Shown here in pieces: positions 5,220 through 25,038 of a DNA stretch of 64,000 nt (within the stretch, counting starts at the first letter, position 1; each line of letters begins with the position of its first letter). This stretch comes from Bradyrhizobium sp. Ash2021 (GTDB lineage Bacteria; Pseudomonadota; Alphaproteobacteria; Rhizobiales; Xanthobacteraceae): the NCBI RefSeq assembly GCF_031202265.1, contig NZ_CP100604.1:5376501-5440500 (forward strand). Reading direction: 5' to 3'. A program made the translations under genes and the position numbers. The notes beneath the pieces are model-generated. The model was given only the letters and a program-made list of their open reading frames with translations, searched no databases and was not told the origin of the DNA.

Positions 5220-5340
5220 GTCACGGAAAAATGCCCGTCAGCCGCCGCCAAACGCGAGGAAATACCTGCGCCATACCGGCCGCCGGAACGTCCGGCAGCC
5301 GCGTCAATCGCGATACAAATGCGAGGGCAGCTATGCGCAA

Positions 5341-14512: not shown

Positions 14513-15922
14513 ATGAAGACCGCCAAAGATGTCCTGAAATCGATCAAGGACAACGACGTTAAATACGTCGATTTGCGTTTCACCGATCCGCGCGGCAAGT
14601 GGCAGCACGTAACCTTCGATGTCGGCATGATCGAAGAGGACACCTTTGCCGAGGGCCAGATGTTCGACGGCTCGTCGATCGCGGGCTGGAAGGCGATCAA
14701 CGAATCCGACATGTGCCTGATGCCCGACCCGGTTACCGCGACGATCGATCCGTTCTTCGCCGAGACCACCATGGTCATCACCTGCGACGTGCTGGAGCCG
14801 ACCACCGGCGAGCCCTACAACCGCGACCCGCGCGGCATGGCCAAGAAGGCCGAGGCGATGGTCAAGTCGATGGGCGTCGGCGACACCGTGTTCTTCGGAC
14901 CGGAAGCCGAGTTCTTCGTGTTCGACGACGTCCGTTTCCAGACCACGCCCTACAACACCGGCTTCAAGCTCGACTCCTCGGAACTGCCGATCAATTCGGA
15001 CACCGAATATGAGGGCGGCAACCTCGGCCACCGCATCCGCACCAAGGCGGGCTACTTCCCGGTGCCGCCGCAGGACTCCGTGCAGGACATGCGCTCCGAA
15101 ATGCTCGGCGCCATGGCCAAGATGGGCGTCAAGGTCGAGAAGCACCACCACGAAGTCGCTTCCGCCCAGCACGAACTCGGCATGAAGTTCGACACCATGA
15201 CGCTGATGGCCGACCAGATGCAGATCTACAAATACTGCATCCATCAGGTCGCGCACATCTACGGCAAGACCGCCACCTTCATGCCGAAGCCGGTCTATGG
15301 CGACAACGGCTCGGGCATGCACTGCCACCAGTCGATCTGGAAGGACGGCAAGCCGGTGTTCGCCGGCAACAAATATGCCGACCTGTCGGAGACCTGCCTG
15401 TCCTACATCGCCGGCATCATCAAGCACGCCAAGGCGATCAACGCCTTCACCAACCCGTCGACCAATTCCTACAAGCGCCTGGTCCCCGGCTACGAAGCCC
15501 CGGTGCTGCTCGCCTACTCCGCGCGCAACCGTTCGGCCTCCTGCCGTATCCCCTACACGTCCAACCCGAAGGCCAAGCGCGTCGAGGTGCGTTTCCCTGA
15601 TCCGATGGCCAATCCCTATCTCGGCTTTGCCGCGATGCTGATGGCGGGTCTGGACGGCATCAAGAACAAGCTCGATCCGGGTTCGGCGATGGACAAGGAT
15701 CTCTACGATCTGCCGAAGGAAGAGCTGAAGGCGATCCCGACCGTGTGCGGTTCGCTCCGCGAGGCGCTGGAAAACCTCGACAAGAATCGCGGCTTCCTCA
15801 AGCACGGCGGCGTTTTCGACGACGACTTCATCGACAGCTATATCGAGCTGAAGATGACGGAAGTGGCGCGCTGCGAAATGACGCCGCATCCGGTCGAATT
15901 CGAGATGTACTACTCGCTGTGA
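14513..15922 (+). CDS. glnA: Glutamine synthetase type I
   Basis: A 469-aa dodecameric enzyme making glutamine from glutamate, ammonia and ATP, the main ammonium entry route. GSI signatures are visible: [10 protein letters not shown], the metal-binding stretch [20 protein letters not shown] and [17 protein letters not shown]. The regulatory adenylylation tyrosine is residue 398 (DKDLYDLP), so it is of the GSI-beta type controlled by GlnE. ATG 14513 follows AAAAGGGG. It is 143 bases after glnB and is probably read from the glnB promoter, perhaps with a second promoter in the gap. A terminator hairpin follows at 15968. Confidence 0.98.
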
Positions 15923-15967
15923 CTTTTTGCGGGGGTTTCCCCGCTGCCGTCACGGCCTGACAATGCG

Positions 15968-16000
15968 AAAGGCGCTCCCAACCGAGCGCCTTTTGTTTTG
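15968..16000 (+). terminator. Rho-independent terminator of glnA
   Basis: A 10-bp perfect stem AAAGGCGCTC/GAGCGCCTTT with a 6-base loop is followed by TGTTTTG. It lies 46 bases after the glnA stop. Confidence 0.9.
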
Positions 16001-16052
16001 TGCGTCCCGGGAGAAAGTCCGGTTTCTAGCTGGACGTCGCGGGTCGCCCACA

Positions 16053-18101
16053 CTACATCGCGCGCTGCAGCGTCGAACAGAGCGACCGATAGTCGGCTTT
16101 GACGGGGCCCGCGAAGCGCTTGCCGTAGAATTGCTGCGCGATCCCGAAGAACTTGTCGGGCGTAAAGGCGGGCGACAGTTTTCTGAGCACCTTCGCAGCC
16201 GCCCTTGCTTCCGCGTTCTTTCCCTGCAGTCCGAGAGCGCATGTCAGCTCGACCCATTGCGCGGGCGCATCGCTATAGAGTTCGATCGCGTTGCGGGCGG
16301 CCGCTTCCATTTTGCCCAATTCGCCCAATTTCCAATGACACCAGCCCGCATAGTGAAACCAGCGGTGGCTTCGGGGGTCACGCGGGCTGATCCGGATCGC
16401 CCGTGCGATCATCTGCAGGCTGTCGGCAGGATCGGCTCCTGCGACGCGATTTGCGTTGGCAAGCAGCGCCAATCCCTGCGGATCATAGGGATTTCGCTCC
16501 ACGGCCTCGTTGAGCAATTCCAGCGCCAGATCGATATTGCCCGCGCTGTAGATCGCGGCGTCAGCGCAATTGACGAGAACGAACGAGTTCTTGGGGTCGG
16601 TCTTCCGTGCCAGCGCCGCATATTCCAGCGCCAGCGCGCGCTCCGCGGCAACGCGCGTCGACGCCGACCAGGTCGCGCGCCAGGTGTAGACCGCGGCAAG
16701 GAGCGCCTGCGCCATTGCATAGTCGGGGTCGATTGCCAGCGCCTGCTTGAGCTCGCCGATCGCGTTGAAAAGCCCTTGAGCGCTGCGGTTGAAGAGAACA
16801 TGCGCATTGGCGCGCTGAAGGCGGGTCCACGCGTTCAAATTGTTCGGGCCCGCGTCAAGCGCGCGGTCAAGATCGGCCATCATCAAAGCCGGCTGAAGCT
16901 GGCTGGCAACCGCCAGAACGATCCGGTTTCGGACCGCAAAAAACTCTCCGAGTTGCTCTTCGTAATTGTTCGCCCAGATGTGAAGTCCGGAGCGGCCCTC
17001 GACCAGGCGCGCGTTGACCCGGACGGACTTGCCCCTCACCTCGATGCTGCCTTCCACAAGATACCTTACGCCGAGATCCTGCGCGATCGTCCGCACATCG
17101 ACCGCGGCGCCCTTGTAGACCATGCAGGATTGGCGGGCCGTGACGAACACGCCTGGAATACGCGCCATCGCCGTCGTCGTCTCTTCGGTCAATCCGTCCG
17201 CCAGGGCCACTTTGGAAGCAGCGCCGGGGCTCAGATCGACGAACGGAATCACGGCAAGCGCCGTAGCCGTCTCGATCGGGAGCGGACGCGTCGGCTGCGG
17301 TGCGGCGGCCGTATGATGCTGGCGGTTAATCTCCGCGATCCAGCGCGTCGAAAACCCGGACTGCGCCGAAATTCCTTTGCGCGATGTCGCCGCTATCGTC
17401 TCATCCAGCAACCGCTTCATCGCGGCAGAAGGCTCGCCGCTACGCTCCCGACCGGCATTCGCGGCGTACAGCCGATATCGTTCGATCACCTCGGCAAGAT
17501 CGTGCCGCGACGCAGAGCTGCGCATCAGGCACCGGTGCGCCTCTTCATTCCCGGGAGCGAGCGCAACCAGCTTCAATGCCACTCCCTCAAGCCGAAGCGG
17601 ATCATCACCATCGTCCGTTGCGCGCAATGCGCTTGCGAAACATTCGCTCGCCGCCTCGCGCAACCGCGAACGGGACAGCGCCAGCCAGTCCGCGAATGGC
17701 CCCTCCGTCAAAGCCGTTGCCTGCAGCAACTCGCCCCGCCAGATCGACGCGGCTTGCAAGGCATCGCCACTGGATATCGCCGAGCGGAACAGCCCGACAT
17801 CGGTCAGGATTTGCTCCGGCAGGCAGACAAAGGGATCATGCCCCCAATCGCTCGGTGACGTGACGCCGATATCTTTCCTGAGTTGCACGAGCTCCTGGCG
17901 AAGACTCGAACGTCCCTGCTGTTCGGAACGCTTATCCCACAACAACGTCGCGAGCCGCGCTCGCGTCCAGCTCTCGCCGGTCTCCATGGCCAGGCATGCG
18001 AACAGCGCGCGCGAACGCCGGCTGCGCACCTCCAGCCTGTTGCCCCGGGCATCAAGCGCCTCGAATGGACCCAGGATATTGATCGTGATGGGGCGCGCCA
18101 T
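16053..18101 (-). CDS. SARP-like transcriptional regulator (winged helix, BTAD, TolB-like, TPR)
   Basis: A 682-aa cytoplasmic regulator. Residues 1-95 form an OmpR-type winged helix as in SARP/AfsR activators (ARLATLLWDKRSEQQGRSSL). Residues 100-240 look like a bacterial transcriptional activation domain. Residues 281-400 (ALAVIPFVDLSP, YLVEGSIEVRGKSVRVNARL) match the TolB-like/FlgO segment found in many adenylate-cyclase-like and CadC-like sensors. The remainder to about 650 is TPR. No transmembrane helix is evident. It is divergent from the autotransporter adhesin, and the 291-base gap holds a direct-repeat module that also occurs before 20869. It may therefore regulate these genes. The ligand or signal is unknown. 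Confidence 0.8.
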   Translation of the reverse strand: MARPITINILGPFEALDARGNRLEVRSRRSRALFACLAMETGESWTRARLATLLWDKRSEQQGRSSLRQELVQLRKDIGVTSPSDWGHDPFVCLPEQILTDVGLFRSAISSGDALQAASIWRGELLQATALTEGPFADWLALSRSRLREAASECFASALRATDDGDDPLRLEGVALKLVALAPGNEEAHRCLMRSSASRHDLAEVIERYRLYAANAGRERSGEPSAAMKRLLDETIAATSRKGISAQSGFSTRWIAEINRQHHTAAAPQPTRPLPIETATALAVIPFVDLSPGAASKVALADGLTEETTTAMARIPGVFVTARQSCMVYKGAAVDVRTIAQDLGVRYLVEGSIEVRGKSVRVNARLVEGRSGLHIWANNYEEQLGEFFAVRNRIVLAVASQLQPALMMADLDRALDAGPNNLNAWTRLQRANAHVLFNRSAQGLFNAIGELKQALAIDPDYAMAQALLAAVYTWRATWSASTRVAAERALALEYAALARKTDPKNSFVLVNCADAAIYSAGNIDLALELLNEAVERNPYDPQGLALLANANRVAGADPADSLQMIARAIRISPRDPRSHRWFHYAGWCHWKLGELGKMEAAARNAIELYSDAPAQWVELTCALGLQGKNAEARAAAKVLRKLSPAFTPDKFFGIAQQFYGKRFAGPVKADYRSLCSTLQRAM

Positions 18102-18219
18102 TGCGTTTTGCTCGTCTCAGCGGTGAAAACCTAACCATGCAGCCGGCTTTTGCCGGACGGTCCGGCGAGAGAACTGCTGAACATTACGCCCGGAACATCG
18201 CAGCGGCGGACACAATCAC

Positions 18220-18287
18220 CGTCAAAACTGCCGCAACGGTTATTGACGCTGATTGACGGCGACGCTTGCCGACTCCCGAACTAGATT
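18220..18287 (+). promoter_or_regulatory. Direct-repeat promoter module, copy A (before the adhesin gene)
   Basis: CGTCAAAACT (18220-18229), then 12 bases, then ATTGACG-CTG-ATTGACG (18242-18258; direct repeats with a 10-bp period), then 23 bases, then TAGATT (18282-18287), a candidate -10. The same parts at the same distances occur at 20688-20755. If TAGATT is the -10, the repeats cover about -52 to -35, where an OmpR/SARP-type activator would bind. The ATG of the adhesin gene is 106 bases further on. Confidence 0.6.
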
Positions 18288-18392
18288 TGTTTCAACGAAC
18301 GCACGAGCAGAGCAGATTCGACTGTAGCGATCTTTGGTTGTTGGGCTACCGGATTTTTCCGCGCACCCCGATCGCAAAGGAAACTGGGGCCA

Positions 18393-19856
18393 ATGATGAC
18401 CGATAAATTGCGGACAAACGCGTTGCAGCGCACCTCTGATTTGGTTTATCCGCACCGCCGCCGGGCGTGGCTGCCGGCCGACAGCGCTAGGTTGGGGCGC
18501 ATGTTGCGAGGTTTGGTTTTGGTCGCGTGTTTCGCGGCAATCGTGTCTCTTGGCTGCGACTTCGCCTCGGCCGCCGATTACTCTGCTGGCGGCGGCGTCG
18601 TCAACGCCCCCTCGGGTTTTGCCACGGCGGTTGGCTCCGGTGCCAGCACGCTCGGAACCAGCGCGACCGCCTTCGGCGCCAGCGCAACCGCGTTCGGCAA
18701 CGGTGCGACCGCGGTAGGCGCCGCTAACATCGCATCTGGAGCAAGCGCGACCGCTATTGGTTCGGGTAGCAACGCAAATGGCGCTCAGGCGACCGCGACG
18801 GGCGCAAATAGTTCCGCGCTTGGCGCCAATGCCACCGCCACCGGCGAAGGCAGTATCGCGAACGGCCAGTTCGCAACGGCAACGGGGCAGAACAGCAGAG
18901 CGACCGGCGATTTCGCGACCGCAAACGGCGTAGGCAGCGTCGCGACTGGCGCCAACGCGACCGCAGCGGGGGGAGACAGTTTCGCCAGTGGTATTGGCGC
19001 AACCGCGACAGGTGTGGCTAGCAACGCGGTCGGCGACGCCGCGACAGCGGCTGGCCTGAACAGCGCTGCGACCGGTCTCAACGCGACCGCGACAGGCGCG
19101 AACAGCATCGCCAACGGTACCGGAGCAACAGCGACGGGTGCGAACAGCACCGCCAACGGCATCTTCGCGACCGCTACTGGCTCATCAAGCGCGGCCAATG
19201 GCGCTGCCGCGACGGCGACAGGTCAAAACAGCGCCGCGACCGGCATTTTCGCGACTGCGACGGGCGCGTTCAGCACCGCGAATGGCGCGACCGCGAGTGC
19301 CTACGGTCACGGCAGCGTGGCCAGTGGCGCTGCCACGACTGCGATCGGACAAGCGAGCGTCGCGAATGCTGCCGGTGCAACGGCGATCGGCCAGGGCGCT
19401 CAGGCGCTCGGGATCAACTCGGTCGCGATCGGTTCCGGCTCGGTGGCGACGCTCGCCAACACCGTGTCGTTCGGCACCCCCGGCAACGAGCGACGGCTCA
19501 GCAACGTAGCCGCCGGCATCAACCCGACCGACGCCGTCAATGTCAGCCAGCTCAGCGGCCTGACCTCGGGCTTCCAGTCCCAGTTCACGGGACTGCAGGC
19601 CGAGGTCACCAACAATCAGCGCGAGGCACGTTCAGGGACCGCGCTGGCACTCGCCGCGACCGGCCTGCAATACGACCAGCGGCCCGGCAAAGCGTCGATC
19701 GCGACCGCCGTTGCCAACTACAAGGGGCAGTCGGGCGTCGCGGTGGGCCTCGGCTATGCGGTCTCGGACCGCTGGCGCGTCAATGCGGCTTTCACATCCG
19801 CGCCGCAGGTGAATGATTACGGGGTCGTCGCCGGTGCGTCGTTCACACTCAACTGA
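18393..19856 (+). CDS. Trimeric autotransporter adhesin (YadA-like)
   Basis: A 487-aa surface adhesin. The first 60 residues form an unusually long signal peptide (basic stretch, then MLRGLVLVACFAAIVSLG, cleavage near ASAAD), like the extended signals of large autotransporters; an internal ATG at 18501 is a shorter alternative. Residues 70-350 are about twenty 14-residue YadA-head repeats of the type ATATGANSxANG, visible also as a 42-bp DNA periodicity. A neck (RLSNVAAGINPTDAVNVSQL) precedes a short coiled coil (residues about 385-410) and a roughly 75-residue C-terminal membrane anchor ending in SFTLN with a final hydrophobic residue pattern. The stalk is very short. It lies downstream of promoter module A and divergent from the SARP-like regulator. 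Confidence 0.9.
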   Translation: MMTDKLRTNALQRTSDLVYPHRRRAWLPADSARLGRMLRGLVLVACFAAIVSLGCDFASAADYSAGGGVVNAPSGFATAVGSGASTLGTSATAFGASATAFGNGATAVGAANIASGASATAIGSGSNANGAQATATGANSSALGANATATGEGSIANGQFATATGQNSRATGDFATANGVGSVATGANATAAGGDSFASGIGATATGVASNAVGDAATAAGLNSAATGLNATATGANSIANGTGATATGANSTANGIFATATGSSSAANGAAATATGQNSAATGIFATATGAFSTANGATASAYGHGSVASGAATTAIGQASVANAAGATAIGQGAQALGINSVAIGSGSVATLANTVSFGTPGNERRLSNVAAGINPTDAVNVSQLSGLTSGFQSQFTGLQAEVTNNQREARSGTALALAATGLQYDQRPGKASIATAVANYKGQSGVAVGLGYAVSDRWRVNAAFTSAPQVNDYGVVAGASFTLN

Positions 19857-19932
19857 AGGGGCACCGAAGCTGGCCCCTGACAGTAGCGGCGGTGCCGGCG
19901 AATTTTCAACATTGCGCAACATTCGCGTGGTG

Positions 19933-20556
19933 ATGGCCAGTGGCCCCGCTCGCTGTGTGCTGCTGTTCGCGATGCTAACCATCGTCGCGATGGGCTGCTC
20001 CGGCGCGCGGGCCGAAACCCCTGCACCAGTTCCAAAGCCGGCGCAAATCGACCGCAATGGCGTGCTGATCCTGATCCGGTCGTCGCTGCTGGCGCTCGAT
20101 CAGGCCAACAAGACCGGCAATTACACGGTGCTGCGCGACATTGGTGCGCCCGGCTTTCAATCCAACACGGCCGCACGGCTCGGCGAGATCTTTGCCAAGC
20201 TACGCAATGACAATCTCGACCTGTCGGGCGTCGCCGTGATCGATCCGCAGCTCAATTTGCTGCCGCAGATCGAAGCCAACGGCCTGATGCATATGGCGGG
20301 CTTCTTTCCGTCGGTGCCGACCCAGGTCAATTTCGATCTGGCGTTCGCGCCGGTGAACGGGCATTGGCGGCTGTTCGGCATCTCGGTCTCGACCGGACCG
20401 AGCGCGCCCGCCGCACCGACGCCACCCGAGCCACCCGTTGCGCAAAAACAGCCTGCCGCAAATGGTGCCAGACCGCCCGCGGCGGCAAAGCCTGCGCCCG
20501 CGGCCAGGCTCGCACCTGCGGATCACAAGCCGGCCGACAATCAGCCGTCCAAATAG
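19933..20556 (+). CDS. Secreted protein of unknown function, Pro/Ala-rich tail
   Basis: A 207-aa protein with an N-terminal signal peptide (ARCVLLFAMLTIVAMGCSGARAE); cleavage after ARA is likely, and the internal Cys could alternatively be a weak lipobox. Residues 30-160 form a compact domain (QANKTGNYTVLRDIGAPGFQ, VNFDLAFAPVNGHWRLFGIS) resembling NTF2-like or DUF4864-type folds, but I cannot name it. The last 60 residues are rich in Pro, Ala and Lys, suggesting a periplasm- or wall-spanning tail. ATG 19933 is chosen because the signal peptide begins there; the longer frame overlaps the adhesin gene. It follows the adhesin by 76 bases on the same strand and may be co-transcribed. Confidence 0.65.
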   Translation: MASGPARCVLLFAMLTIVAMGCSGARAETPAPVPKPAQIDRNGVLILIRSSLLALDQANKTGNYTVLRDIGAPGFQSNTAARLGEIFAKLRNDNLDLSGVAVIDPQLNLLPQIEANGLMHMAGFFPSVPTQVNFDLAFAPVNGHWRLFGISVSTGPSAPAAPTPPEPPVAQKQPAANGARPPAAAKPAPAARLAPADHKPADNQPSK

Positions 20557-20669
20557 GACGACCTACCAGGCAGCGAGCGGCGACAAATGAATCTTCGACG
20601 AAACCCTGAAGTCGATGACGATGATGTTCGCGACGATGATATTCGAATCATCCCAACGTTGAACACGAT

Positions 20670-20755
20670 CATCGTCAAAACTTGCATCGTCAAAACTTGC
20701 GCGTCAATTATTGACGCCGATTGACCGAGACGATTGTCGTCTTCCGCACTACGCT
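20670..20755 (+). promoter_or_regulatory. Direct-repeat promoter module, copy B (before the 49-aa peptide gene)
   Basis: CATCGTCAAAACTTG occurs twice in perfect tandem (20670-20684 and 20685-20699). The second CGTCAAAACT (20688-20697) is followed after 12 bases by ATTGACG-CCG-ATTGACC (20710-20726), then 23 bases, then TACGCT (20750-20755). The element order and every spacing match copy A at 18220. The next ATG is 114 bases downstream, against 106 in copy A. Confidence 0.6.
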
Positions 20756-20868
20756 TGTGTCGCACTGTGAACGACCTCACAAAGCAAATCGGCCAAGCTT
20801 GATAATATGAAATCAGACTTCGCCATTCGGGTTCGGTTTGGCGAAGACAACAACAATGCGAGGATGCC

Positions 20869-21018
20869 ATGCCCACATTCGTCAGAATGGTCGCCGAACT
20901 TGAGGAGCCCGCGGAATTTCTCAGTGATGATTTCCGTGCGGTAGTCCTGTTCGGCGGCATCGGACTGCTGGTGGCGCTGATCGCGGTGTGCACCGGTGTG
21001 CAGGGCGTATGGCTTTGA
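20869..21018 (+). CDS. 49-aa predicted membrane peptide
   Basis: A short gene encoding 49 residues with an acidic N-terminal half (MVAELEEPAEFLSDDF) and one hydrophobic helix at about residues 25-42 (VVLFGGIGLLVALIAVCTGV). The N-terminal negative charge suggests the N-terminus may face the periplasm, but orientation is uncertain. AGGA lies before ATG 20869; an overlapping ATG at 20864 opens another frame with no hydrophobic segment. It is preceded by promoter module B at the same distance as the adhesin gene from module A, and followed 105 bases later by the bicupin gene. I do not recognise a family. Confidence 0.55.
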   Translation: MPTFVRMVAELEEPAEFLSDDFRAVVLFGGIGLLVALIAVCTGVQGVWL

Positions 21019-21020
21019 GA

Positions 21021-21051
21021 TTGTCGAGCGCGACGCGCGACCAATTATAGT
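21021..21051 (+). promoter_or_regulatory. Weak candidate promoter before the bicupin gene
   Basis: TTGTCG (21021-21026) is followed after 17-19 bases by ATTATA/TATAGT (21044-21051), in a stretch richer in A+T than its surroundings. GGAG precedes the bicupin ATG at 21124. Read-through from module B is equally possible. Confidence 0.25.
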
Positions 21052-21123
21052 TTCGTTTCAGCAATTTCGCGTTGCGCCAGGTTCCAGGCTTTTCGAATCA
21101 CAACGAAAATTGGAGCGCGCACC

Positions 21124-22320
21124 ATGTTTGAACCAAATCGCCGGATTATCCTTCAGTCGATTGCCGTCGGCGCCGGTACCTTCGCCGCCTCACAATCCTT
21201 TGCCGTTGGAAACGACGGACATGCAGCCGGATATGACGTTTCCGCCGCCTCGGAATACCTGAAGACGATTCCGCGCAAATCCGGCGATCCCGTGGTCTTT
21301 ACGGCCTCCCTCGACAAGGGGCCGATCAAGGCAACATCCGGGGGGTGGGCACGTGAAGTCACCATGCGCGGACTGCCCATCGCCACCGATATCGCCGGCG
21401 CGCATCTGTTCATAAATGCGGGCGGTGCCCGCGAGATGCATTGGCACAATTCAGCCGAGTGGGCCTACGTCGTCGATGGCCTTTGCCAGGTGACGGTGGT
21501 CGACCCCGAGGGTGTAGCCGAGGTCGTCAATCTCGGGCCGGGTGATCTCTGGTACTTCCCCAAAGGCCACAGCCACGCAATCCAGACCCTCGGCCCGTCG
21601 CCGTGTCACGCGATCCTTGCCTTCGACGATGGACTGTATTCGGAACACGGCACGTTCGGCATCAGCGACTGGATGAGCCGTTACGATACAAAGGCCCTTT
21701 CGCAGGCATTCGGCGTCTCGGATGAGGCTTTCGCACAGATCCCCAAGGCCGAGACCTACATCATGCAGGGCGAGCTGCTGGCTCTCGATGGTCCGCAGGC
21801 GCGTTCCGCCCGCGAGTTGGAGCACGCGCGAACCCATCGCCACGCCATGATGGCGCAGAAGCCGAAAGTGAGCACGCCGGGCGGCGCGCTCTACATCGCG
21901 TCTTCAAAGGAATTTCCGATGTCGACGACGTTGACGGGAATGGTTCTGAAGTTGAAGCACGCTGCGATGCACGAACCGCATTGGCACACCGATGCCAATG
22001 AATGGCATTATGTATTAAAGGGGCGAACGCGGGTCACGCTGTTCGCGCCCGACAAGCGGGTCGCTGTGGCCGAGCTTTCGCCGGGCGAGTGCGCCTACAT
22101 ACCTCGCGGTTGCGGACACTCCATTCAAAACGTGGGTCCGGAGGACGCTGAAATCGTCGGCGTGCTGGACAGCGGCACCTACCACGAAAGCTCTCTGTCA
22201 GAATGGCTGGCGAAGGCGCCGCGCCATCTGCTCGCCAATAATTTTGGCGTCGCGGAAAAGGACGTCGCCAACTTCAACAGGAAACGCATGGTGATTTCCG
22301 CCCCGATCACGCCGACTTGA
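21124..22320 (+). CDS. Bicupin, oxalate decarboxylase family
   Basis: A 398-aa exported protein with two cupin domains, each able to bind one manganese. The first has HWHNSAEWAYVVDG and GHSHAIQ (about residues 104-155). The second has PHWHTDANEWHYVLKG and GCGHSIQ (about 280-335). The lid segment DDGLYSEHGTFGISDWMSR corresponds to the SENST region of Bacillus OxdC, and its Glu, the proposed catalytic acid, is present, though the lid reads SEHGT. This fits decarboxylation (oxalate to formate and CO2) or oxidation of oxalate; which one cannot be told. The N-terminus NRRIILQSIAVGAGTFAAS looks like a twin-arginine signal, so it would act outside the cytoplasm. It follows the 49-aa peptide gene by 105 bases. 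Confidence 0.88.
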   Translation: MFEPNRRIILQSIAVGAGTFAASQSFAVGNDGHAAGYDVSAASEYLKTIPRKSGDPVVFTASLDKGPIKATSGGWAREVTMRGLPIATDIAGAHLFINAGGAREMHWHNSAEWAYVVDGLCQVTVVDPEGVAEVVNLGPGDLWYFPKGHSHAIQTLGPSPCHAILAFDDGLYSEHGTFGISDWMSRYDTKALSQAFGVSDEAFAQIPKAETYIMQGELLALDGPQARSARELEHARTHRHAMMAQKPKVSTPGGALYIASSKEFPMSTTLTGMVLKLKHAAMHEPHWHTDANEWHYVLKGRTRVTLFAPDKRVAVAELSPGECAYIPRGCGHSIQNVGPEDAEIVGVLDSGTYHESSLSEWLAKAPRHLLANNFGVAEKDVANFNRKRMVISAPITPT

Positions 22321-22379
22321 CGTCGGTTTGTTCGGTCGAAATCCGACCGAGGACCGTCAACGGGTTCGGAGGATTGGCA

Positions 22380-22718
22380 ATGACCTCGACTTTTCGAACT
22401 TTCGTCCTTGGACTGCTCCTCCTGATCACCACGAATTGCGTGACTCGGGCGGCGGATCGGTCGGTCACCTTAATGCTCGGTGCGGGGTCCGCACTTGAGG
22501 TGGAGCGGCCGTTCAAAACCGTCCTGATCGGAGATCCCGATATCGTCGATGTACATGCCCGTAGCGACCGCTCGGTTATTCTCGAGCCGCTGAACCCTGG
22601 AACGACGAACCTCGTTTTCGTTGACGAGAGGAGCATCGCGATCAGCAACGTCCGGATCCTGGTTTGCAGCGCAGGCGCGATCCCTGTGAAGTTTGAAGAC
22701 GGTCCCGATTGCGAATAA
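22380..22718 (+). CDS. Secretin N-terminal-domain protein (pilus assembly type)
   Basis: A 112-aa exported protein. The signal peptide (FVLGLLLLITTNCVTRAADR) is followed by a single domain with the motif sequence LEVERPFKTVLIGDPDIVDVHA and PGTTNLVFVDE, which is the short domain at the N-terminus of CpaC/RcpA-type secretins. It stands alone here without a secretin barrel or tad genes. GGAGG precedes ATG 22380. It follows the bicupin by 59 bases on the same strand and may belong to that transcript. It could be a stray periplasmic partner of a pilus or secretin machine encoded elsewhere; its function is unknown. Confidence 0.78.
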   Translation: MTSTFRTFVLGLLLLITTNCVTRAADRSVTLMLGAGSALEVERPFKTVLIGDPDIVDVHARSDRSVILEPLNPGTTNLVFVDERSIAISNVRILVCSAGAIPVKFEDGPDCE

Positions 22719-22746
22719 ACTGAAGCTGCCAGCTGCGAGAAACCGG

Positions 22747-25038
22747 CTAAGTTTCTTCCGGCAGATTTTGCCGCAGGAAGCGATTGAGGTCCGGCTGCAC
22801 CGAGTAAGGCAGCGGAATCGGATCGCCCGCCGGGTCGACCGCCGGATCGAGACAGCGGCGCAACATGCGTGCGAGCTCCGCCCGCCGATAAGGCTTGGTC
22901 AGAAGCGGGATGCCGTGCCCGACGCGGCCCTGCAACGGCAGCGCGCCGTCGGTATATCCTGACGTGAAGAGCACCCTGAGCGACGGCCGCCCGGCCATGA
23001 CCGATTCCGCAAGCTGCCGGCCGTTCATGCTGCCGGGCATCACGATGTCGGTGAACAGCAGATCGAACGCCGCGCCGTCATTGATGATGGCGATGGCCTC
23101 GTCGGCATCAGCGGCAACCATGACCTGGTAGCCAAGGCTCTCGAGCTGGATCGTCACATAGTCGCGAACTTTGCGGTCGTCCTCGACACACAGGATGGTT
23201 TCGTGGCCGCCCTGCACCGGCGGATCGTCCTGCGCCCGCGGCTGCAGCACGCTCGCGTCCGCCTTGGGCAGATAAATCCTGAACGTGGTGCCGCGGCCCT
23301 CCGCGCTGCGGACCTCGACGCTTCCGCCGGACTGCTTGGCGAAGCCGAACACCATGCTGAGCCCGAGCCCGGTCCCCTGCCCCACTTCCTTGGTGGAAAA
23401 GAACGGATCGAAAATCCGGTCGAGAATGCGCGGCGGCATGCCGGTGCCGGTGTCGCTGACCTCGATCGCGACATAGTCGCCGGCGCGTTCGACGCCGCTG
23501 GCCACCGCTTCCGGAACGCCCAATGTGACGTTGCTGGTCGCAAAGGTCAGCCGGCCGCCGAGCGGCATGGCGTCGCGGGCATTGATCGCGAGATTGACGA
23601 GCGCGGAGGTAAGCTGGCTGCTGTCGACGAACGCCGGCCAGACCTCGCCGCTGAGCGCGGTCTCGATTTCGATCTGCTTGCCGAGCGGTGGCGACAGCAG
23701 GCGGACGGCTTCGCGAATGAGCTCGTTGACGTCGATCTCGGCCGGCTGCAGCGGCTGCTTCCGGGCGAACGCAAGCAGGCTTGCCGTGAGCTGCCCCCCG
23801 CGGTCGGCTGCTTCGCTGATCAACTGCGTCACCTTGGCCAGATGCGGAACGTCCCTGACGCCGTCGGCGAGGATTTCGATCGTGCCGGTGATCACGGTCA
23901 GCATGTTGTTGAAGTCGTGGGCGATGCCGCCGGTCAGTTGCCCGAGCGACTCCATCTTTTGCGCCTGGATCAACTGCTCTTCGGCGGCGCGCTGTTGCGT
24001 GATGTCCCTGACAAAGGCGTTGATGATGTAACGGTCACCGCGGCGTAGCGCCGTCAATGACGCTTCGACGACGAATTCGTGGCGGTCCCGGTGCAGCGCG
24101 CGGGCTTCGTATCGCATGCCGGTGGCGCCAGCCGTGGCCTCGTGCAGGAACCGGGCGATCCGCTCCCTGTGCGCGGCGCGGTCCGGTTCGGGAAAAACCA
24201 GCTCCGCCACATTGACGCCGACCGCCTCCGCCCGGGTCCACCCGGTCAGGGACTCCGCCTGCGGGCTCCAGTCGAGGATGACGCCGTTTTCATCGGTCTG
24301 GACGAAGGCGTCGAGCGCGGTCTTGATGATGGACTGCGCCATCTGCTCGCTGTCGACCAGCGCCTGGTGGGCCCGCCTTTGCCCGGTGATATCGCGCAGA
24401 ACCGTGACCGCCCCGCGAAGCTTGCCACGTTCGTCGCGCAACGGCCGCGCGTTGGCGACGATGTACGCCCGCGCGGCCGGCGCTTCGGGTTGCACGGCGA
24501 GTTCGAAATCGTCGACATTCTCGCCACGCAACGCGCGTGCCAGCGGCGAATCCGGAATCGGCATCGGGGTGACGTCGTCGGCAAGGAAACAGGCGAAGGT
24601 TCGCGTTCCCGTCAGGCTGTTGAAACCGGGGGCGACGCCGAGCAACCTCCGCGCCGCGGCGTTGGCAACGACGACCACGCCGTTCTCGTCGGCAACGACG
24701 ACGGAGTCACGGATGCTCTCGACGGTCTTCTCAAGCAGATCCCGCTTGGTGCCGAACTGGGTCGTAAGCTCAGCGAAGGCCGCGGCAAGACCGTCAATCT
24801 CCCCGCAGCCGTCGGATGGTATCGGGACCGTTTCGCCGCGCGACAGGCCTTCGACGGCCCGGGTCATCTGCGTCAGCGGCCTCGACAACGACCTGGCGAT
24901 CCCGGCCGCGAGCACGAGGGCGAGAACAGCCGCAATCGCCACACCGGTCAAATAGTAATGTGCGAACAGGCTGAGCGCGCATGCGGTTGCCACGACCAGC
25001 AACACCATCGCAATCGCAAGGCGGCCCCACAGAGTCAT
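22747..25038 (-). CDS. Hybrid histidine kinase (HAMP, PAS, PAS, HisKA, HATPase, receiver)
   Basis: A 763-aa membrane sensor kinase. Two adjacent hydrophobic segments lie at about residues 5-45 with almost no periplasmic loop, so sensing is probably intramembrane or cytoplasmic. HAMP follows ([18 protein letters not shown]), then two PAS domains (about 105-215 and 230-345; [14 protein letters not shown]), HisKA with the phospho-acceptor His in [11 protein letters not shown], and HATPase with [18 protein letters not shown] and [12 protein letters not shown]. The C-terminal receiver has its Asp in [13 protein letters not shown] 25038 ([11 protein letters not shown]) is chosen over an upstream TTG. 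No response regulator gene is adjacent. It converges on the secretin-N-like gene. Confidence 0.92.

Follow-up and report, generated by a model that had tools for sequence, protein, structure and literature searches.

The window that we analysed is a stretch of 64,000 nucleotides, C1:5376501-5440500 of the source genome G000 (9.7 Mb, two contigs). The locus under study consists of a regulator gene, an adhesin gene divergent from it, and a series of smaller genes downstream of the adhesin:

16053..18101, minus strand: divergent regulator gene, 682 aa, with a winged-helix-like N-terminus, a BTAD, a cyclase-linked sensor-like stretch and TPR
18393..19856, plus strand: gene for a YadA-type trimeric autotransporter (adhesin), 487 aa, with YadA_head and YadA_anchor above cut-off
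19813..20556, plus strand: open reading frame of 247 aa, no family found; its orthologue in G078 matches at 91% over 136 aa
20869..21018, plus strand: gene for a 49-aa membrane peptide, its length kept in G078, G025 and G238 (61-73%)
21124..22320, plus strand: gene for a bicupin of the oxalate decarboxylase family (TIGR03404, 315.6 bits, cut-off 254.2)
22317..22718, plus strand: gene for a protein with a pilus-formation N-terminal domain (PF13629, domain match)

A search of 15900-22800 for known structured RNAs gave no Rfam match at the gathering threshold. The intergenic regions before the adhesin gene and before the peptide gene each carry the same promoter-like module. The features of the two regions are given below; transcription starts were set 12 bases downstream of where the -10 hexamer begins, and both starts and -10 hexamers are predictions.

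18220..18227, plus strand: module 1 distal half-site CGTCAAAA (an inverted TTGACG), about -74 to -67 from the predicted start at 18294
18242..18258, plus strand: module 1 direct repeats, ATTGACG twice with a 10-bp period, about -52 to -36
18259..18264, plus strand: module 1 -35-like hexamer GCGACG, 17 bp before the -10
18282..18287, plus strand: module 1 -10-like hexamer TAGATT, predicted start near 18294
20673..20707, plus strand: extra CGTCAA copies at 20673 and 20702, flanking the module 2 copy at 20688
20688..20695, plus strand: module 2 distal half-site CGTCAAAA
20710..20726, plus strand: module 2 direct repeats, ATTGACG and ATTGACC with a 10-bp period
20727..20732, plus strand: module 2 -35-like hexamer GAGACG
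20750..20755, plus strand: module 2 -10-like hexamer TACGCT, predicted start P1 near 20762
20766..20781, no strand assigned: CRP-type box TGTGAACGACCTCACA, TGTGA-N6-TCACA, about +5 to +20 of P1, centre at -41.5 of P2
20803..20808, plus strand: P2 -10-like hexamer TAATAT, 30 nt from the box centre, predicted start P2 near 20815

A sequence-only reading of this DNA had reported the pattern CGTCAAAACT-N12-ATTGAC-N4-ATTGAC before both genes. The pattern is indeed present with that spacing at 18220 and 20688 and nowhere else in the window, and the repeats (18242 and 18252; 20710 and 20720) and hexamers (TAGATT at 18282, TACGCT at 20750) lie where that reading had placed them. The leaders, given as 106 and 114 bases, measure 105 and 113 from hexamer end to ATG, one fewer each. 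The reading did not include the extra CGTCAA copies at promoter 2, where a 15-base tandem duplication, CATCGTCAAAACTTG twice, at 20670-20699 supplies an extra CGTCAA.

The likeness between the two regions spans about 75 bases, wider than had been described. The 75-mers from 18216 and 20684 are identical at 56 of 75 positions without a gap. The next best match in the window is 37/75, on the module's own reverse strand at 18252, followed by 36; the scores have a mean of 19.1 and a standard deviation of 3.8. The 95-base flanks are 45% and 44% identical, versus 76% for the module, so the likeness ends at the module edges. None of 100 shuffles of the window contained the pattern, and from base composition about 1e-7 exact matches are expected in a genome. 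When the whole genome was searched for it, as the reading had proposed, we obtained two matches on the forward strand and none on the reverse, both in the window, with none for a reversed-pattern control. Likewise, ATTGACGNNGATTGAC occurs without mismatch at the same two places only. By themselves, the repeats are not rare in loose form: allowing up to two mismatches, they occur at 57 places in the genome, versus 8 for the reversed control. We examined 30 of these 57 loci. At both window sites, CGTCAAAA stands at -22 and TAnnnT at +40; the other 28 have neither. The module is therefore a correct observation and not a product of chance.

Seven modules from four genomes (G000, G078, G025 and G238) align in a single register, the sole indel being a one-base insertion between the repeats and the -10 of one module, G078B. 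Invariant in all seven are CGTCAAAA, TTGACGC in the first repeat, GACG at the -35 place and TAnnnT at the -10 place. The distance from CGTCAA to the first repeat is 22 in every one, and the -35-like hexamer precedes the -10 by 17 bp (18 in G078B). The second repeat ends at 18258 or 20726, and the -35-like hexamer begins at the very next base (18259 or 20727); the repeat centre lies at about -44. We agree with the sequence-only reading that the TTGAC repeats, 23 bp from the -10, are too distant to serve as a -35. A simple consensus scan for sigma-70 promoters over 18100-21150 returned none (shuffles gave a mean of 0.5). With respect to the predicted starts, the site abuts the -35 of a poor promoter, as does that of a class II activator. 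These features support a conserved activator-type site with fixed spacing, which would lie upstream of a weak promoter in a class II-like position.

In class II sites for OmpR and PhoB, repeats arranged in tandem follow each other at about one helical turn and adjoin the -35. The module repeats resemble OmpR, PhoB and ToxR sites in both respects, and the ToxR winged helix is matched in the divergent regulator; unlike proteins of that type, this regulator has no receiver domain, and the module adds an inverted half-site two turns upstream. With AfsR and other SARPs, the system shares a winged helix plus BTAD, a TPR-bearing C-terminus, direct repeats and a poor -35 (PDB 8hvr and excerpts of PMC10936776). 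According to the same excerpts, SARP repeats are 11 or 22 bp apart with the 3′ repeat 8 bp from the -10, and AfsR at afsS has 11 bp between repeats, the family's 8 bp, and a site centre at -29.5. Unlike these, the module repeats are 10 bp apart and 23 bp from the predicted -10, with a centre near -44. Measured against the SARP rule as excerpted there, this spacing (10 and 23 bp versus 11 or 22 and 8 bp, the -10 being predicted) led us to reject a SARP-type operator. Hence the sequence-only comparison with activator-binding repeats of SARP and OmpR-type regulators holds for an activator-type site and fails for SARP geometry.

The same reading had taken the gene at 16053-18101 to encode just such a regulator. 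A winged-helix/BTAD-like protein it is; however, a Pfam scan found no receiver domain, a feature of OmpR-type response regulators, and Trans_reg_C scored 18.0 bits, below its 26.2 cut-off. BTAD is above cut-off. With a profile of seven homologues, residues 5-79 match the AfsR winged helix (PDB 8hvr, E 1.3e-4) and residues 18-80 the ToxR winged helix (E 9e-4). The order of domains, an OmpR-like winged helix followed by BTAD, is that of SARPs, with the sub-cut-off Trans_reg_C as its weak point. Unlike in AfsR, Pfam did not report a NOD domain, and the middle part matches adenylate cyclase-linked sensor regions. Residues 270-650 match many proteins of the genus at about 30%, one of which has a cyclase domain before the matching stretch and another an OmpR-type winged helix, so the sensor-like part is common to cyclase-type and other regulators. 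A single-sequence structure model of residues 1-259 was too poor for a fold search (mean pLDDT 48.4). In a comparison of the regulator protein with named genomes, 21 stretches matched a pattern and none was confirmed.

The module is confined to few relatives. The exact pattern, with a gap of 10-14 bases, is found in one of 242 genomes, G000 itself; single-base differences keep the relatives out of this count. With module 1 alone as the query, BLAST against these 242 genomes ranked G000, G078, G025 and G238 on top (E<=3.1e-5), the next being 6.5e-4. We then used R1, a model trained on seven of its nine strong sites, and in 265 genomes of the genus it reached E 1.3e-6 or better only in G000 (2), G025 (3), G078 (2) and G238 (2). 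At E<=0.01 there were 26 genomes, the 22 beyond these four lying between 7.4e-4 and 0.01. In a sample of 391 genomes from 47 genera of the family, some of them from the same genus, G000 alone was reported at E<=5e-4; this sample is incomplete, since G025, G078 and G238 went unreported in it.

Searching the same 265 genomes for the regulator protein gave nine at E<=1e-70, and close orthologues (77-100%) are in exactly the same four: G000, G078 (90%), G025 (84%) and G238. In G238 it is a C-terminal remnant, 77% over aa 475-682, without the DNA-binding part, and no N-terminal match there exceeded 28%. At that locus (L091 2735-3427) a deletion has fused the module to the regulator gene midway along its length, leaving the C-terminal remnant. 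More distant homologues occur in G121 and G192 (about 51%) and in G026, G131 and G113 (41-44%); around the latter three, no R1 match at E<=1 was found within 12-13 kb. The restriction of the element to a few relatives that keep the regulator gene or its remnant suggests that it is probably the regulator's private switch. Linkage and descent inflate this co-occurrence, because one module adjoins the regulator gene.

The element is not tied to one locus in every relative. G025 and G238 carry it also before a distant AEC transporter locus unlinked to the regulator, and in G238 that copy is nearly perfect (72.8 bits). From 117 genomes searched, the AEC orthologues of G044 (one), G053 (two) and G000 (two, one partial) lack the module. 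G044 and G053 are without a close regulator orthologue; G000 has the regulator. At the oxalate decarboxylase-family loci of other genomes, 0 of 18 had a module at E<=1. Most relatives of the bicupin in G000 carry the name Bradyrhizobium, so G000 probably belongs to this genus or to a close one. The sequence-only reading had predicted a small regulon of surface genes. For a multi-locus regulon in G000 we find no support: the exact pattern occurs twice only, the next R1 match has an E of 0.019, and none of the 28 other loose sites examined has the remaining parts. The sequence-only reading had itself listed such an absence of further copies as refuting. Here it is a two-promoter, one-locus system. 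What survives of the regulon is the second, distant locus in relatives. The term surface genes is only partly apt, as the gene after the peptide belongs to the oxalate decarboxylase family.

A diverged form of the element precedes the regulator gene itself in G121 and G192, two genomes so alike in this stretch that we count them once. There, CGTCAAAA is followed by ATTGACGCTG (ATTGACG) at +32, which corresponds to the second repeat, and by TAAGCT at +61 (a TAnnnT; 62 here), and the element is oriented toward the roughly 50% identical regulator gene. By composition, the two words alone are expected about 2e-6 times per such region. The likeness is partial and diverged: the full R1 model gives only 10.7 bits in G121, where the first repeat reads ATTGAAA. 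This element hints at autoregulation, and the regulator probably controls its own gene. In G121, divergent from this 51% regulator, lies an open frame of at least 2359 aa (L065 5925-13001).

Promoter 2 holds a further element, overlooked by the sequence-only reading. The CRP-type box at 20766 reads TGTGA-N6-TCACA, with a -10 in register; as in class II CRP-dependent promoters, its centre is at -41.5 and the -10 starts 30 nt from the centre. Unlike in such promoters, the box is joined at a fixed distance to a TTGACG module: it lies 55-56 bases from the first repeat in five promoters and 53 in one. The motif occurs at 28 sites in G000, versus 1 for the reversed control. Across the 56 site orientations, TAnnnT starts 30-31 nt from the centre eight times, versus seven times at the other 58 offsets together (chance about 2e-10, Poisson count); several of the sites seem to have arisen by recent duplication from one another, so not all are independent. 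These 28 sites, with -10 hexamers in class II register, are a candidate CRP-type regulon in G000. The peptide genes of G078 (a TATGA variant), G025 and G238 are also preceded by a box with a TA-type hexamer at 29-30, as is the AEC gene in both G025 and G238. No CRP-type box was found in the 190 bases read at module 1, G078A or G025B1. Given this arrangement of box and -10, transcription of the peptide gene may begin near 20815, and the start near 20760 is one of two plausible ones.

Taking these results together, we favour, with moderate confidence, a reading in which the divergent winged-helix/BTAD regulator binds the TTGACG half-sites and, from a class II-like position, activates the two modules, while promoter 2 would receive an added CRP-type input. 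Both elements would be copies of one promoter-operator module. This one-component regulator would bind three half-sites, one inverted and distal and two direct and abutting the -35, and from there activate a promoter with a poor -35 (nnGACG, 17 bp, TAnnnT). Module 1 would drive the adhesin gene, and module 2 the peptide, oxalate decarboxylase and pilus-domain genes as a putative operon; the regulator would probably control its own gene as well. Through the CRP-type box, transcription would also begin about 53 bases further downstream than from module 2. The box covers the initial bases of the P1 transcript, so that the two inputs may be mutually exclusive. Sequence, spacing, conservation and co-occurrence of the module, and the enrichment and -10 register of the CRP-type box, are direct observations; binding, activation, operon structure, autoregulation and exclusion we infer from them. 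The fuller version, a SARP-like activator with a cyclase-type sensor driving P1 and a CRP-type protein activating P2 from over the P1 start, we put forward as a speculative proposal that we regard as unlikely.

The strongest result against the favoured reading comes from G238, where the element persists although the regulator has lost its DNA-binding part; a recent loss or a different binding protein would account for the discrepancy. It also counts against it that G000 has the regulator, yet its own two AEC genes lack the module. Further points against it are the lack of R1 matches around the 41-44% homologues, the low full-model score in G121 and the empty sigma-70 scan. In a rival reading, some other DNA-binding protein, for example an OmpR-type protein of a two-component system, binds the module, and the divergent gene is a co-travelling neighbour. 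The 72.8-bit AEC-locus element of G238 fits such a protein, and 10-bp direct repeats abutting the -35 suit OmpR-type class II activation better than SARP sites. A widely conserved regulator, however, should leave sites in more than four of 265 genomes, and the G121 and G192 elements precede a diverged copy of the very same regulator gene; on balance, we think this account unlikely.

It is also conceivable that no dedicated activator exists, and that an adhesin-lipoprotein-like cassette was inserted beside a copied intergenic region, the likeness reflecting descent and constraint on the core promoter of an ordinary, locally duplicated promoter. G025 and G238 indeed have a single module between the regulator (or its remnant) and the peptide, and lack the adhesin; the second copy of G000 and G078 therefore came with the cassette, or the cassette was lost. 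Yet the likeness reaches 62 bases upstream of the -10, the 22-base distance holds in all seven modules next to unlike flanks, and the element recurs at a distant locus, which together make duplication alone quite improbable. For promoter 2, one may further ask whether the CRP-type promoter near 20815 provides the only working start, with the module as an upstream accessory site. This proposal draws on the preservation of box and -10 register upstream of the peptide gene in G078, G025 and G238 and on the 28 sites versus 1 in the control. Against it, TAnnnT at the module -10 is invariant in seven of seven modules, three of which (module 1, G078A and G025B1) have no CRP-type box. We hold it to be somewhat unlikely.

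If the two-input switch is true, the peptide and oxalate decarboxylase genes would have two mutually exclusive starts answering to two signals, and the adhesin gene would answer to one signal only. Our comparison of genomes pairs a previously uncharacterised winged-helix/BTAD/TPR regulator with a precise candidate operator. It also suggests that the adhesin, the membrane peptide and the oxalate decarboxylase-family enzyme are under joint control. A further suggestion is that, outside actinobacteria, the position from which SARP-like proteins activate may differ. A literature search confined to titles and the openings of abstracts found no account of this element, which is no proof of its being unpublished.

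Related arrangements are seen elsewhere in the genus. In Bradyrhizobium sp. Ec3.3 (L190 4388-6001), a different BTAD-type regulator (31%) is divergent from the oxalate decarboxylase-family gene, and between the two, at 5303, lies a perfect TGTGA-N6-TCACA. AEC transporter genes are repeatedly preceded by small peptides, one-helix or secreted (L089 7124-7303 and 7544-7720; L147; L148), and in G053 a pilus-domain-like protein is encoded upstream. Genes for the small peptide, the pilus-domain protein, AEC and oxalate decarboxylase seem to reshuffle together.
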